This document shows, in pieces, positions 1 through 6,751 of a stretch of 64,000 bases of DNA (positions are counted from its first letter, which is position 1; each line of letters begins with the position of its first letter). The DNA is taken from assembly GCA_031288535.1 (NCBI GenBank), contig JAITRF010000034.1, positions 1-64,000 on the forward strand. The letters are read 5' to 3'. Below the pieces are notes generated by a model. That model ran no database searches. It saw only the letters and a program-made list of their open reading frames with translations, and had not been told where the DNA came from. The DNA is from Desulfovibrio sp. (GTDB lineage Bacteria > Desulfobacterota > Desulfovibrionia > Desulfovibrionales > Desulfovibrionaceae). The position numbers and the translations under genes are program-made.

Positions 1-829
1 GACCCCCAGATTTTCGAACAGGGGCCCGTCAAAGGACGCGGAGTATTCGTGCTTGCGGAACTTGGGCTGCAGATCGGCCGTGCTGGAATTTTCCCTGTCA
101 AGGGACTGGTCCTCGGTAAAGCGCATTTTCGTCCAGAGATCGTTGGTGTGCCGGTACTTGCCCATGACGTGCCATCTGTCCATGCGCGCGTCGCGCAGCT
201 TGGCGTCCACCACGCCGCCAGTGAAACCGCCGTATTCCGCGGAAATGTTTTCCGAATATACCGTGATGGATTCAAGGAGGCTGCGGTCGAGGAAGAGGTT
301 CTGCGCCTCGCCCCGGGGCTGGCCGGTGGCGGCGGCGGCCTCGCCGTGATACAGGCCGCCGGGGTTCATGTTGCTGTTGTTGCTGACCCCGTTCAGGGTG
401 AAGTTGTTCTCGTAGTGCTTGCTGCCCCGGATGGAAATTCGGGGCGGGGCGATTTCACCGCCAAGGGCGCCGCTACGCGAATTCTGATCGAACTGGATGT
501 TGGATTTGCCCCGCAGGGCGTCGGTCACCGTGCCGGTGGCAGAAGGGGCTAGTTTGATGAAGTTCCGGTCGAGCGTCGTGGCGCCGGGATGATCGTCGTC
601 CTCCCGCACCTGCACTTCTTCCAGCCTGTACACCTGGCCTTGTTCCGGGGTATTGGCCGGCTCTTCCGCCGTTTGATGGGGGGGGGGGGGGGGGGGGTGT
701 TTTGTCAGCCACGGCAAAGGCCGGGCACAGGGCGAGAGCCAGTCCCAGAGCTGCCGCCAGAAGGCGCGGCATGCTTTCCCAACGCCGCGCCGCCGCAATG
801 CGCGCCGTCATTGTGATGTGTGTCGCCAT
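1..829 (-). CDS. TonB-dependent receptor, N-terminal part, runs off window; frameshifted at a poly-C20 tract (putative phase-OFF)
   Basis: ATG at 829 with GGAGGG RBS, signal peptide MPRLLAAALGLALALCPAFAVADKT. Minus-strand C20 tract (678-697). In the other frame after the tract: QTAEEPANTPEQGQVYRLEEVQVREDDDHPGATTLDRNFIKLAPSATGTVTDALRGKSNIQFDQN...ITVYSENISAEYGGFTGGVVDAKLRD, typical plug domain. Confidence 0.85.
678..697. repeat. Mononucleotide G20 (coding-strand C20) tract, candidate slipped-strand phase-variation switch
   Basis: 20 consecutive G on + strand, inside the 5' coding region of the TonB-dependent receptor. Confidence 0.9.
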
Positions 830-959: not shown

Positions 960-2210
960 TCAGGTTCCCCGCGTCCCGGTTTCGCGCCCGAGCGGACCGA
1001 AGGCCAGGGCGGCGATGCAGCCGGGCAGGCCGGTGCAGGCGACAAGAAACAGGGCCGCGAGATCAAGCCTGCGCGCCCTGCGGCAGCAGGCGTAGAACAG
1101 ACCCAGAGCGCAGACGACGCCCAGCGCGGCGAAACCGGGATTCGGGGCAAAACGCAGGTCAAAGAACTGGCTCAACACGAACGGGGTGAGCAGGGACAGG
1201 CCCTTGTCCAAAAGTTCGGACCGGGCCCGGACGGCTTCCGGCAACAAGGCGCTGTACCGGCGCAGGGGACGGAAGTCCCGATCCAGCGCGGCATAGCGCA
1301 CCGGCGCGGCAACGCCGGACAAATCGTGTTCAATCATGGTCCGGTACAGGGCCGTGGAACGCAGACTGAGCGTGTTGACGCGCGGATCCCAACTTTCAGA
1401 CGGCAGCCTGAGCAGGCGGTCGCCGTACATAAGCAGATACGGCCCCGCCCCGGCCGCAAGCGCGGCGTAAAAGCCCCGGCTTTCGTGTTCCTCGACAATA
1501 AGGGCCAGCGTATCCCGCGGCGCGACGAGGCCGGTGGCGCGGCACACGGGTTCGCCACGCGCCATCTGCAGTTGAAATATCCCGCCATTGCCGTCAATGA
1601 AGACCAGCCCCTCGTCAAAGGGCTTGTAGATCGAGGGATTGCTTGCGGCCAGGCGCAGGGGAAATACCGCCCCGGCCCGTTTTATTTCGGCTGTGAAGCG
1701 GACGGATTTTTCCCCGTTCAGACTCCCGTCGGCGCAACGCAGAAAGCTGATCCCGTCTGCCCCGACGACCAGCACGTCGTCGGGCAGTTCGAGCGATACT
1801 CCTTCAGGGACGGATTCAAACAGCGCATGCACAGGAAATTTCCGCCCGAAAATCTCGCGCGGGGTCAGGCTGCTGAAGTAGCGCAAATTCTTTTCCGCCT
1901 CTTCAAAGGAAAAAACGCGCCCGTCAAGCGTAATGGGGAAGCCGCCCCATTTGCGGACGTTGCCCGGAAAAACCAGCGGCATAAGCCGCTGTGCTTCGCG
2001 CGTGGGGAGTAAACGGCCGTCCTCGTCCCGAAAGCGTATGCCCTTGGGACCCATTTCCCAGATCATGAAGCGGCGCGTAAGCGGGCTGTATTCGCCGCTC
2101 AACTGGAAACGATCCGCCCGCGTGGCCCGGCCGTAGACATAGGGGATGAACCAGACCAGCACGAGGACGCAGATCAGCATGGCGGCAAAGCGCGGCGTAT
2201 GGATGCTCAC
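960..2210 (-). CDS. Membrane-anchored protein of an ABC-2 type locus (DUF4857-like)
   Basis: GTG start at 2210 overlapping the upstream stop (GTGA); N-terminal TM (FAAMLICVLVLVWFIPYVYG) and C-terminal TM pair; family name is from memory. Confidence 0.6.
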   Translation of the reverse strand: MSIHTPRFAAMLICVLVLVWFIPYVYGRATRADRFQLSGEYSPLTRRFMIWEMGPKGIRFRDEDGRLLPTREAQRLMPLVFPGNVRKWGGFPITLDGRVFSFEEAEKNLRYFSSLTPREIFGRKFPVHALFESVPEGVSLELPDDVLVVGADGISFLRCADGSLNGEKSVRFTAEIKRAGAVFPLRLAASNPSIYKPFDEGLVFIDGNGGIFQLQMARGEPVCRATGLVAPRDTLALIVEEHESRGFYAALAAGAGPYLLMYGDRLLRLPSESWDPRVNTLSLRSTALYRTMIEHDLSGVAAPVRYAALDRDFRPLRRYSALLPEAVRARSELLDKGLSLLTPFVLSQFFDLRFAPNPGFAALGVVCALGLFYACCRRARRLDLAALFLVACTGLPGCIAALAFGPLGRETGTRGT

Positions 2211-2899
2211 CTTTGTCCCTCCTTGACGCGCAGGGCCGCGGATTCGAGCGCCAGGGGCCAGAGCAGGCAGGCCAGGACATACGGCCACATGTTGCCGCCC
2301 AGCGGAGAATAGCCATTGCCGGCCGTCAGCAGGGTGACATAGCCAAAGCCGAGCAGGCCGAACAGAATTGCGCGCGCCGGACGCGGCTCGGCCAGCACGG
2401 CGGCCGTGGAGCAATAGGAGGCAAAACCGGCCAAACCCCAAGGCGGCAGGGTGCCGAGCATGGGCAGGGCCAGTTCGCGGGGAAAGCCCATGCGCGCGAA
2501 GACCAGGGCCAGACCACCGACGGCGGCGCAAAGCAGCGCAAGATTGAGCAGCAGGCCGTAACCGACCGCCGTGTACATGGAAACCCGGTAGGACACCGGC
2601 AGGTGGAACATAAGACGCAGCCTGCGGCCCGAGCATTCCGGCACGAACTGCAAGGCCGCGAAAAACATTCCGGCGGCGGCCAAAACCCACGACAAGCGGC
2701 TGAAATGCACGGTCTGCTTGACGATAAGCTCATACCACAAAGCCGGCGCGCCGTGCATGGCTACAAAGCCCTTATACATCAGGCTGACGTCGCACAACGC
2801 GGCCGCAAGCGCCGCAAAGGGGATCCAGAACAGCAGGCGGACCTTGATCCATTCCTTCATGCACGCCGCCCGCAGAATGCTCCGTATATCGCCGCCCAT
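2207..2899 (-). CDS. ABC transporter permease-like multi-TM membrane protein
   Basis: Multiple hydrophobic helices; directly after ATPase gene and overlapping next gene. Confidence 0.65.
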   Translation of the reverse strand: MGGDIRSILRAACMKEWIKVRLLFWIPFAALAAALCDVSLMYKGFVAMHGAPALWYELIVKQTVHFSRLSWVLAAAGMFFAALQFVPECSGRRLRLMFHLPVSYRVSMYTAVGYGLLLNLALLCAAVGGLALVFARMGFPRELALPMLGTLPPWGLAGFASYCSTAAVLAEPRPARAILFGLLGFGYVTLLTAGNGYSPLGGNMWPYVLACLLWPLALESAALRVKEGQR

Positions 2900-2900
2900 A

Positions 2901-3818
2901 TCAGTACCTGCCGGTAAGACCGATGAACGCGTCTTCAAAACTCAGGGGCTGCTGCGCAAGCTGGTCCAGAGCCTCGGTTTCAAGCCCCAGACCCGCAAGG
3001 TGGCCGCGCATGGCGTCGAGCGGCGCGAACCCGTACACGGCGACGTCGCGCCTGCCGGCCTCAATACTATGCACCGGGCCTCCCCGGGTCTGCGTCGGCG
3101 CAAGCTCCCGAAGGCGCGGCTCATAACGCGCCGGCAGTGTGTACCCGAAAAATCCCGCCATAAAGCTGTCTCTGGTTCCGCTGACGATAATTTCGCCCTC
3201 ATGGATGATCAGCACGTCGTCGAGAAAAGAATCCAGTTCCTGAACGATGTGCGAGGTCAACAGCACGGTCGTGCCCCGCACGTCCACATATTCGCGCAGA
3301 AATTCCAGGAACAGGCGGCGGTAGCCGACGTCAAGCCCCATGGAATAATCGTCCAGAATCATCAGTTCGGGGCATTGGGCGAGGATCAGCCCCAGAATTA
3401 CCTGCGAACGCTGCCCGCAGGACAGGCGCGACACCTTGCGGCTGTGAGGAACGTCCACAAGACGGTTGACGAGATCGTAGTAAAGATCGCGATCCCAGGC
3501 CGGGTAAAAGGCCGCGTGGTAGCGCTCGATCTCCGCGATAGTCATGAAATCGTACTGCACGAAGCCTTCATGGAGCAGACCTATCCGGCGCCGCTCCAGG
3601 GGGGGAATGGCGTGGCCGGGGTGGCCGAGTATCGAACACGCGCCCGCATCCGGCCGCAAAAAACCCATCAGTATGTTGATGGTCGTGCTTTTGCCCGCCC
3701 CGTTTTTACCGAGCAGGCCGACAATGCCCCCCTGCTCCACCGTAAAGCTAACTCCGTGCAGCACTTCTCTGCCTCCATAGGCGAACCGCAGACCCTCGCA
3801 GGCGATCAGCGCGATCAT
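2901..3818 (-). CDS. ABC transporter ATP-binding protein
   Basis: Walker A GLLGKNGAGKST, signature LSCGQ, Walker B LMILDDYSMGLD, H-loop LLTSHIVQEL. Confidence 0.92.
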   Translation of the reverse strand: MIALIACEGLRFAYGGREVLHGVSFTVEQGGIVGLLGKNGAGKSTTINILMGFLRPDAGACSILGHPGHAIPPLERRRIGLLHEGFVQYDFMTIAEIERYHAAFYPAWDRDLYYDLVNRLVDVPHSRKVSRLSCGQRSQVILGLILAQCPELMILDDYSMGLDVGYRRLFLEFLREYVDVRGTTVLLTSHIVQELDSFLDDVLIIHEGEIIVSGTRDSFMAGFFGYTLPARYEPRLRELAPTQTRGGPVHSIEAGRRDVAVYGFAPLDAMRGHLAGLGLETEALDQLAQQPLSFEDAFIGLTGRY

Positions 3819-6703
3819 GGCCCTTTTCCTTCGGAAGGGGGCGGGGCGTCGGCCGTTACGATCAGGCAGGAGAAGGGGGCCTCGGCAAAGATGGCGCGCG
3901 CCTCGGCCGACACCGCTTCGGGGGGGATAGAAGCGACCAGGTCGGCGAATTCATTATTCCATTGCGGGTAGGGACGGCCGTACAACAGTTCGTCGCTCAC
4001 CATGCGGTGCCAGACTTGCGTCTTTTTCCGGTTGGTGGACCAGGCGGTCAGCATGGGTTTACGCGCCAGGTCGAGTTCTTCTCCGCCCACTCCCTGTTCG
4101 GCAAGCGCCCCGGCAACGGAGCGGGCCGCCTCCAGGACTTGGCCGCTGTTCGCGGGAGTGGCGGAAATTTCGAACTGCAGCAGACCGAAATCCTCGTCGT
4201 CCACAAAATTCCAGTAGAACGCGGAAGGACTGTAGGATGCGCCGAGTTCTTCGCGCAACCGCGCGCGCAGCCGATCCCGAAGAACGAGAGCCACAAACCG
4301 GCGGGTCGCGAGCAGGGACCGATTTTTCTCATCCCCGAGCGGGCGGAACCAGGCCATACGCACCACGGTTTTGGCGACGGGGTCGTCCACCACGCGCACA
4401 TGCCGTTCGGTTTCGGGAAAAGAGGGCGGCGCGGCCAGACGCGGCCCGAGGGCGGCGGGCGCCGGCGCGGCGCCGAAAAGTCCGGCCGCCAGGGCCAAAG
4501 CCGCCTCCGGTTCAAAATCGCCGCTGATAAGCAGATGCGCGGGACCGCCTCTTCTGGTTTCCCTGACGCTGGCGACAATTTCCGCCAGACCGACGCCCCT
4601 GGCGTCCGTTTCTTCCAAAGCGGCGAAGCGTTTTGCCGGGCCGAAAAAATATCTCCGCCATTCCGCCCTGTCCACGCCGTCCACAGTGTGGAAACGCCGG
4701 CGGCTGTTCAGGGCCAGGCTTTGCAATACCCTGTTCCGGGCGATTTCCGTAGGCGCAGGATCCGTGTACTGCGTCCAGACGGCCTGGAGCATGAGCTCCA
4801 GATGTTCGCTGCCTCCGGAAGCGGCAATGGACGAAGACTGCGCGCCGTAGTCCTCGACTACTTTGATGCCGCGCCCCTGTAGCAGGAAATCCGTGTCCGC
4901 CCTGGTCAACGCCCCGATTCCCCCCTGCCCGAGCACTGCGGTCGTCATGCGGGCGAGCGGCACCGCGGCATCGGGCAGGGCCAGAAACCCGTTGCCGAAG
5001 AACAGACTGGCCATGACCGTATTTTTTTCGTACCGGATCGGGAGCAGATGGATGCGCAGGCCGTTTTCCAGAACCGCCGTGCGCAGCGTCGGGGCGTCCT
5101 CCCCCAGAGAACGGGTCCGCAATTCCGGCAACCGCGCGGGAGGCGGCGGCAATTCAAGATAGGGGAAAGGCCGGGCGCCGGCTTCGCCGGTAGCGATGGA
5201 CAGGGTATCGGCCGTTTTCCACGCTTCCAGGATATCCTGTTCCGCGTTCGGGAGTTCCAGATTGCCGCTGAGGTGGATGGTCCGGTTTTCAGGAGCGAAG
5301 GCGGAGCGCAGGGCCGCGTTGACCTGATCCGGAGTGATGGCCGGGGCCATTGCGGCGAAATTTTCCCGATCGTTTTCCTCGGTAGTGAACACCTTGTCCT
5401 GATTGGCGGCGGCGACGAACATGCCGGCGATTTCGCCGCTGGAGAGGCCGGCGCGTTTGCCGGCGGCGCGCTCGAGGCTCTGCCCGAGCAGGCGCTTGGC
5501 CTGCTCCACTTCCCTCTGCGAAAATCCCCGCGCCAGCGCGCCTTGCATTTCTTCGGCCAGCGCCCGCAACGCCGTCTTCCAGTTCGACGCCTCCGTAACG
5601 GCGCCCATGCTCACGACAGGCATCAGGCTGTCGCGGGAACGATCCCGGAAATGCGCGGCGTTCCATATCCCCGGCTGCCGCTCTTCGCGCATTTTCAGGC
5701 GTTGGCGCAGGCACAGGGCCGCGACGTCGCCGGTGAAAGCGGCCCGGAGATCCTCTGAGGTGTTGCGTTGATGCCGGCGCGGGTGCAGGACCAGCACGGA
5801 AATATGGACCCCGGTGATGTTCCGGGTATGCAAAACGGCGCGCAATGGAGGCGTTTCCGGCGTGCCCAGGGACGTTATTTCCGGCGCGGGACGCTTTGCG
5901 CGCATATCCGAGAAAGCCTGCTCAATCATGGGTTCGATCCCGCCGGGATCGACTTCGCCGACGGCCACCAGCATCATCCGCTCCGGCGTGTACCACCTGT
6001 GGTAGAAATTGAGGAGTTTTTCCCGGTTGGCGCTACGAACGCAGGCCTCGGTGCCGATCGTCTCGTGAACGAAGGCCGTGCCCGCAAAGACGGTCTGCCG
6101 GTACCGTACCCCCGCCCTGGCTTCTTCGCTGTCTCTGGCGTTCTTTTCCGCGAGGATGACGCCCACTTCGTCCCGGACCTCTTTTTCATCCATGGTCATG
6201 CCGTCTGCAAAGTCGCGCAGGATGTCCAGACCCATGCGCAGAGACCCGGAATCGGCCGAAGCCAGATTGAGCTTGTACACTGTTTCCGCAAACGAGGTAT
6301 GGGCATTGGTGTCGCCGCCGAAACTCATGCCGTTCTTCTGGAAGAAAGGAATCAGCGATCCGGGGGGGAAACGCCGTGTACCGTTGAAGGCCATGTGTTC
6401 GACAAAATGCGCGTACCCCCGCTCCTCGTCGGTTTCCATCAGTGAACCGGCCTGGACGTTGAGATACAGGCTGACGCGTCCAGACGGCACGGCGTTGGGA
6501 ATGACGGCGTAGCGCATGCCGTTCGTGAGCCGGCCGAACCGGACCGCCGGATCCGGCGCGAGATCGCTGCCTTCATGCGCCCATGGCCCGCCGTACCAGG
6601 AAAGTTCCGCGGCCTGCCCCCGCGCTTGGGCGAAGAGCAGCAGGTACGGCAGCAAAACAAGCGCGGCGAGGCGGCGCGACAGCAGAGTCAATGTCGGGAT
6701 CAT
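3815..6703 (-). CDS. M16 (pitrilysin) family zinc metallopeptidase, secreted
   Basis: HFVEHMAFNGT inverted zinc motif (HxxEH); two-half M16 architecture, 962 aa; N-terminal signal-like sequence. Confidence 0.93.
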   Translation of the reverse strand: MIPTLTLLSRRLAALVLLPYLLLFAQARGQAAELSWYGGPWAHEGSDLAPDPAVRFGRLTNGMRYAVIPNAVPSGRVSLYLNVQAGSLMETDEERGYAHFVEHMAFNGTRRFPPGSLIPFFQKNGMSFGGDTNAHTSFAETVYKLNLASADSGSLRMGLDILRDFADGMTMDEKEVRDEVGVILAEKNARDSEEARAGVRYRQTVFAGTAFVHETIGTEACVRSANREKLLNFYHRWYTPERMMLVAVGEVDPGGIEPMIEQAFSDMRAKRPAPEITSLGTPETPPLRAVLHTRNITGVHISVLVLHPRRHQRNTSEDLRAAFTGDVAALCLRQRLKMREERQPGIWNAAHFRDRSRDSLMPVVSMGAVTEASNWKTALRALAEEMQGALARGFSQREVEQAKRLLGQSLERAAGKRAGLSSGEIAGMFVAAANQDKVFTTEENDRENFAAMAPAITPDQVNAALRSAFAPENRTIHLSGNLELPNAEQDILEAWKTADTLSIATGEAGARPFPYLELPPPPARLPELRTRSLGEDAPTLRTAVLENGLRIHLLPIRYEKNTVMASLFFGNGFLALPDAAVPLARMTTAVLGQGGIGALTRADTDFLLQGRGIKVVEDYGAQSSSIAASGGSEHLELMLQAVWTQYTDPAPTEIARNRVLQSLALNSRRRFHTVDGVDRAEWRRYFFGPAKRFAALEETDARGVGLAEIVASVRETRRGGPAHLLISGDFEPEAALALAAGLFGAAPAPAALGPRLAAPPSFPETERHVRVVDDPVAKTVVRMAWFRPLGDEKNRSLLATRRFVALVLRDRLRARLREELGASYSPSAFYWNFVDDEDFGLLQFEISATPANSGQVLEAARSVAGALAEQGVGGEELDLARKPMLTAWSTNRKKTQVWHRMVSDELLYGRPYPQWNNEFADLVASIPPEAVSAEARAIFAEAPFSCLIVTADAPPPSEGKGP

Positions 6704-6736: not shown

Positions 6737-6751
6737 TGATTATGACTATCA
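6737..6751. promoter_or_regulatory. Putative Fur box upstream of the M16-ABC-TonB operon
   Basis: TGATTATGACTATCA matches 12 of 14 specified positions of TGATAATnATTATCA. Confidence 0.5.

Follow-up and report, generated by a model that had tools for sequence, protein, structure and literature searches.

A C20 homopolymer as predicted phase-variation switch of a FusA/YddB-type TonB-dependent receptor in Desulfovibrio

Genes and features of the locus

The stretch of DNA analysed here, called the window throughout, comprises the initial 64 kb (64,000 nucleotides) of a 65.5-kb Desulfovibrio sp. contig (C149), with window base 1 corresponding to contig base 1. The assembly is a draft of 153 contigs and 2.83 Mb with an estimated completeness of 95%. 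At the left end of the window an operon was found on the - strand, which begins with an M16 peptidase gene and leads via two ABC-transporter genes and a DUF4857 gene to a TonB-dependent receptor gene cut by the contig end (Table 1). Among the best PDB matches of the PqqL/FusC-like M16 peptidase were 9ldy (E=8.4e-48) and PqqL 6ofs (E=4.7e-42). The slot of the permease-like protein is likewise occupied in L051 and relatives. Relatives in other genera, Mailhella included, share the operon gene set, which is followed there by a family-5 solute-binding protein, two permeases and an ATPase, in one case also by ExbB/ExbD. In the present genome the solute-binding protein restarts at base 1 of a further contig (C61), with two permeases next to it and an ExbB-like protein later on. 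Judged from this gene order, the operon continues on C61, and approximately 2.9 kb including the receptor barrel are missing between both contigs, a gap length estimated by comparison with the relatives.

Just 226 receptor codons downstream of the tract described below are contained in the assembly, while about 640 codons fall into the gap; a genome search did not find the receptor beta barrel elsewhere in the assembly. For the 226 codons Pfam analysis revealed the plug domain PF07715 (E=1.9e-7). Only two PDB chains matched this part of the protein. One is 4zgv (E=2e-40, residues 32-225), FusA, the receptor for plant ferredoxin. The other is 6ofr (E=4.6e-26), which according to the entry series adjoining PqqL (6ofs, 6oft) represents YddB from the Ydd-PqqL system of E. 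coli. The nearest full-length homologue (L109) is 54% identical over the matched part and matches FusA over 49-871, nearly the full length, with E=7.7e-75. By sequence, the receptor is thus a member of the FusA/YddB family. By its gene content, the locus is a protease-associated import system as PMC6793856 uses the term, with predicted protein import and periplasmic cleavage. Upstream of the M16 peptidase gene the Fur-box-like palindrome TGATTATGACTATCA was the sole match in the window to TGATAATNATTATCA at 2 mismatches, with 0.04 matches expected in 64 kb; no equivalent was found at the corresponding place in L109 or L110. This candidate Fur box would be consistent with an iron-controlled operon.

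Table 1. Features of the receptor operon in the window, and frame-breaking C/G tracts in genes of other Desulfovibrionaceae.
Feature	Position or locus	Strand	Basis or remark
TonB-dependent receptor, N-terminal linker and plug, 226 codons, cut by contig end	1..678	-	PF07715, FusA and YddB matches
OFF frame at 20 C, stop near 473, 118 aa	473..829	-	ORF list, translation
C20 homopolymer, proposed switch	678..697	-	base counts, shuffles, frame translation
Start, signal peptide and first mature residues MATHITMTARIAAARRWESMPRLLAAALGLALALCPAFAVADKT	698..829	-	signal peptide by eye
DUF4857 membrane protein, same operon as receptor	960..2210	-	PF16149, E=2.6e-51
ABC-transporter permease-like membrane protein, same operon	2207..2938	-	by position, no Pfam match
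ABC-transporter ATP-binding protein, same operon	2901..3818	-	PF00005, E=2.8e-20
M16 peptidase, PqqL/FusC-like, first gene of the operon	3815..6703	-	PF00675, PF05193
Fur-box-like palindrome TGATTATGACTATCA, candidate	6737..6751	.	about 34 bp upstream of M16 start
FkbM methyltransferase, G16, after ATG ATA AAT TAT (4 codons)	L105 (G010:C85)		out of frame; same genus
Glycosyltransferase 61, G15	L092 (G005:C58)		out of frame; same genus
Glycosyltransferase 4, C18, 9 codons after ATG	L080 (G104:C97)		out of frame
Acyltransferase 3, G14	L077 (G101:C45)		out of frame
Big_9 adhesin-like protein, C15, 17 codons after ATG	L163 (G103:C40)		out of frame
D12 DNA adenine methylase, G15	L052 (G015:C3)		out of frame

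The C20 tract and the reading frames across it

Direct counting of bases confirmed the C20 homopolymer of the original prediction: window positions 678-697 are exactly 20 G on the + strand, i.e. C20 on the coding strand. The second-longest C/G run within the window measures 8, and a run of 20 was obtained in 0 of 100 dinucleotide shuffles, showing that the tract is longer than chance. Searching the whole genome for C/G runs of at least 9 yielded six runs of 9, a single run of 10, none of 11-19, and one run each of 20, 22 and 24. The tract thus lies well beyond both chance and the run-length distribution of the genome.

The frame opens with an ATG at 829-827, preceded by a Shine-Dalgarno-like GGGAGGG at 841-835, and 132 bases of open frame separate this ATG from the C tract. 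Along the - strand the signal-peptide-like MATHITMTARIAAARRWESMPRLLAAALGLALALCPAFAVADKT is followed by the tract and then by the receptor sequence HQTAEEPANTPEQGQVYRLEEVQV... The proposed location directly after the signal peptide, which was judged by eye, therefore checks out. On its other side the tract is bordered by the TonB-box-like motif LEEVQV. The linker that holds it differs freely from homologue to homologue, both in sequence and in length; in the ON frame the tract encodes about six prolines of this linker before the plug.

Translation from ATG 829 at varied tract lengths gave 118 aa at 20 C and 93 aa at 21 C; at 19, 22 and 25 C the product ran on, with 276 aa or more, until the contig stops, and the frame was likewise open at 16 C. 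Only tract lengths of 1 mod 3 (e.g. 19, 22, 25) continue into the receptor frame, and a unit change of tract length toggles between truncated product and open receptor frame. It had been claimed that the gene is out of frame at 20 C, with a stop at about 473 after 118 aa, and that the receptor needs 1 mod 3 (19 or 22 C); translation agrees with both. We are conscious that an exact tract length is unsafe in a draft and that the assembled 20 may be a base or more off. Since reversible change is, moreover, a prediction, we do not call the gene OFF in the living population.

Integrity of the receptor frame and distribution among relatives

The receptor frame is well preserved. In the alignment of this stretch 31 of the 33 residues invariant in 11 homologues are retained (the L050 homologue, mis-trimmed in the alignment, was left out of this count), no stop occurs within the 226 codons, and the GC content of the three codon positions is 0.61/0.44/0.80, with the GC3 of 0.80 matching the neighbouring genes. 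Therefore, the frameshift must have arisen very recently, unless the gene is in part-time use.

A search of 14 further genomes of the genus found no homologous receptor gene; the DUF4857 gene is likewise absent from them. The distribution of the operon is sporadic: as deduced from the gene content, it was either gained in this genome or lost in the other 14. The tract itself is missing in 12 of 12 homologous genomes, with no C/G run above 6 at the corresponding linker. The absence of the tract from these 12 genomes and of the operon from the 14 other species of the genus gives no sign of evolutionary persistence; together with the location of the barrel part in the assembly gap, it weighs against the proposed switch.

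Predicted switching and its alternatives

We consider it probable that the C20 tract is a contingency locus for slipped-strand ON/OFF phase variation of the protease-associated import receptor. Slipped-strand mispairing during replication would add or remove C residues between signal peptide and plug, each event altering the tract by one base or a few, so that one length class in three would lead to the receptor. At 1 mod 3 lengths signal peptide and receptor would be read in one frame, connected by a poly-proline linker (ON), while at all other lengths the receptor would be missing and an exported peptide, about 93-118 aa long, would be made instead (OFF). The population would then be composed of ON and OFF cells for the uptake of a putative protein-type ligand, which the co-encoded M16 peptidase would cut, with the products of the ABC-transporter genes aiding import. 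As slippage should be frequent at 20 units, a mixed population would be expected whatever length the assembly shows. Tract length presumably varies in the living population, and such change may be under selection. As a prediction, the phase-variation reading put forward originally is supported by the tract itself, its position and the frame arithmetic, by the weakness of the artefact and pseudogene explanations and by comparable tracts in surface-type genes of the family.

The tract may be real and long but wrongly assembled by a base or more; most cells would then carry 19 or 22 C with the gene in frame, and sequencing or assembly error would have produced the apparent OFF state. We regard this as a possibility of some weight, although not the favoured one. 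It is backed by the 153-contig draft status with a contig break 677 bp from the tract, by the error-proneness of homopolymers in sequencing (PMC11140927), by PCR stutter, which rises with tract length (PMC3786947), and by the artefact-type orientation of two further C tracts of this genome, located at the starts of contigs C78 and C108. A length error does not account, however, for some 20 C at a site that is free of such a tract in homologues, and 19 or 22 C would slip equally. Being concerned with the OFF call only, a length error is compatible with switching. That the DNA contains no tract at all, the poly-G stemming from two-colour sequencing or from a false join, appears very improbable. 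Terminal tracts are common indeed, and left contig ends of the genus showed 12 C runs versus 3 G runs (P=0.018), as expected from reads ending in false G. The window tract, in contrast, is a G run on the + strand near a left end, which is opposite to the artefact orientation. Moreover, its flanks are unique, comprising 677 ordinary bases on one side and more than 60,000 on the other, and the signal peptide and the plug of one gene adjoin it in the right order and on the right strand. By orientation and flanks a contig-end poly-G artefact was ruled out for the window tract. Of the two other tracts, the C22 at G000:C108:17-38 carries the typical G-rich tail on the other strand and is likely a contig-end poly-G artefact. 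For the C24 at G000:C78:41-64, with 40 ordinary bases beyond the tract, an artefact is possible, yet it may be real. Neither was counted as support for the switch.

Decay of the receptor into a pseudogene, with the frameshift as one step, was judged very improbable. The sporadic operon, absent in the other 14 genomes of the genus, makes loss plausible, but the retained residues, the 226 codons free of stops and the high GC3 speak against it, as do the neighbouring and downstream genes, which are all open. It is also improbable, to a slightly lesser degree, that the tract has a fixed length and the shift is bypassed by RNA polymerase slippage or ribosomal frameshifting, resulting in some receptor in every cell and hence dose control. 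Long homopolymers can cause transcript slippage and the observed frames are compatible with a bypass, which, however, neither needs nor explains a tract as long as 20; at such a length DNA slippage is expected anyway.

Comparison with known systems

Poly-C/G phase variation has been described chiefly in Neisseria, Campylobacter and Helicobacter. The phasomes of these bacteria resemble the present findings in that genes for surface structures and for modification carry long C/G tracts. In Neisseria meningitidis switching is established for the haemoglobin-uptake genes hmbR and hpuA, which carry poly-G in the reading frame (PMC3786947). Common to these genes and the predicted Desulfovibrionaceae switch is a homopolymer inside the open reading frame of an outer-membrane protein for iron-source uptake, with ON and OFF determined by length mod 3. 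For hpuA, ON at 4, 7, 10 G and so on, i.e. 1 mod 3 (PMC3786947), the rule is even identical. Differences concern the tracts, mostly 8-15 G in Neisseria versus 20 C here, the receptor, which here matches FusA/YddB in the PDB and not a haemoglobin receptor, the bacterium, here a member of the Desulfovibrionaceae, and the status of switching, which was shown in Neisseria and is predicted in Desulfovibrionaceae. With Fus and Ydd-PqqL (FusA, FusC; YddB, PqqL) the locus shares the combination of a FusA-family receptor with a PqqL-type M16 peptidase in an operon as well as the sporadic distribution (PMC6793856). It differs from them by the additional ATPase-permease-DUF4857 set, the family-5 peptide ABC importer and the ExbB-like genes; ABC transporters and phase variation are both absent from the text of PMC6793856.

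A search of titles and abstracts in the open literature, with most subscription papers outside its scope, yielded neither an account of homopolymer phase variation in Desulfovibrio nor one of a phase-variable PqqL-type system. The mechanism is already known; novelty appears to lie in the lineage and in the receptor class. Phages and bacteriocins could plausibly enter cells through receptors of the FusA type. If the prediction is true, it would suggest that putative whole-protein import receptors bear a cost (phage, bacteriocin or immune target) worth switching off, and a simple sequence-based test of heterogeneity in natural populations of Desulfovibrionaceae would be at hand.

Similar tracts in the Desulfovibrionaceae

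C/G runs of 14 or more were found in 106 of 288 genomes of the family, many of them being terminal artefacts. Most tracts of G134 and G252 and many others were set aside as terminal, low-complexity or adjoining N runs. In the near-closed genome G252, nearly 500 bases, almost all of them C, split a DEAD-box-helicase-like gene (L128, G252:C1:2091920-2092400), which is most likely an assembly artefact. Among the tracts left over, which are internal and have unique flanks, several put genes of classes typical for phase variation out of frame (Table 1). These frame-breaking tracts were chosen by inspection and do not represent a counted sample, and their lengths share the sequencing doubt. Internal tracts that remain in frame, i.e. 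those of L167 (MBOAT, C14), L079 and L073, count against the switch reading. In L167 (G079:C23), the C14 of the MBOAT acyltransferase gene directly adjoins a (CT)n-type repeat and is in frame in the assembly.

The mutS gene of the genome under study contains an in-frame C10 (Asp-Pro-Pro-Pro-His) directly before the motif FIRRQT (G000:C48:1942-1952; L031 1501-1510), which is absent in 4 of 4 other members of the genus with readable motif, one of them 89% identical. Slippage at this tract would abolish mismatch repair. It is conceivable, if rather doubtful, that the Desulfovibrionaceae possess a broad poly-C/G phasome for surface glycans, an adhesin, a DNA methylase and the import receptor, with the mutS C10 possibly tuning the switching rate. 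Signs of frame-breaking tracts in surface genes of many family members make this wider question directly testable.
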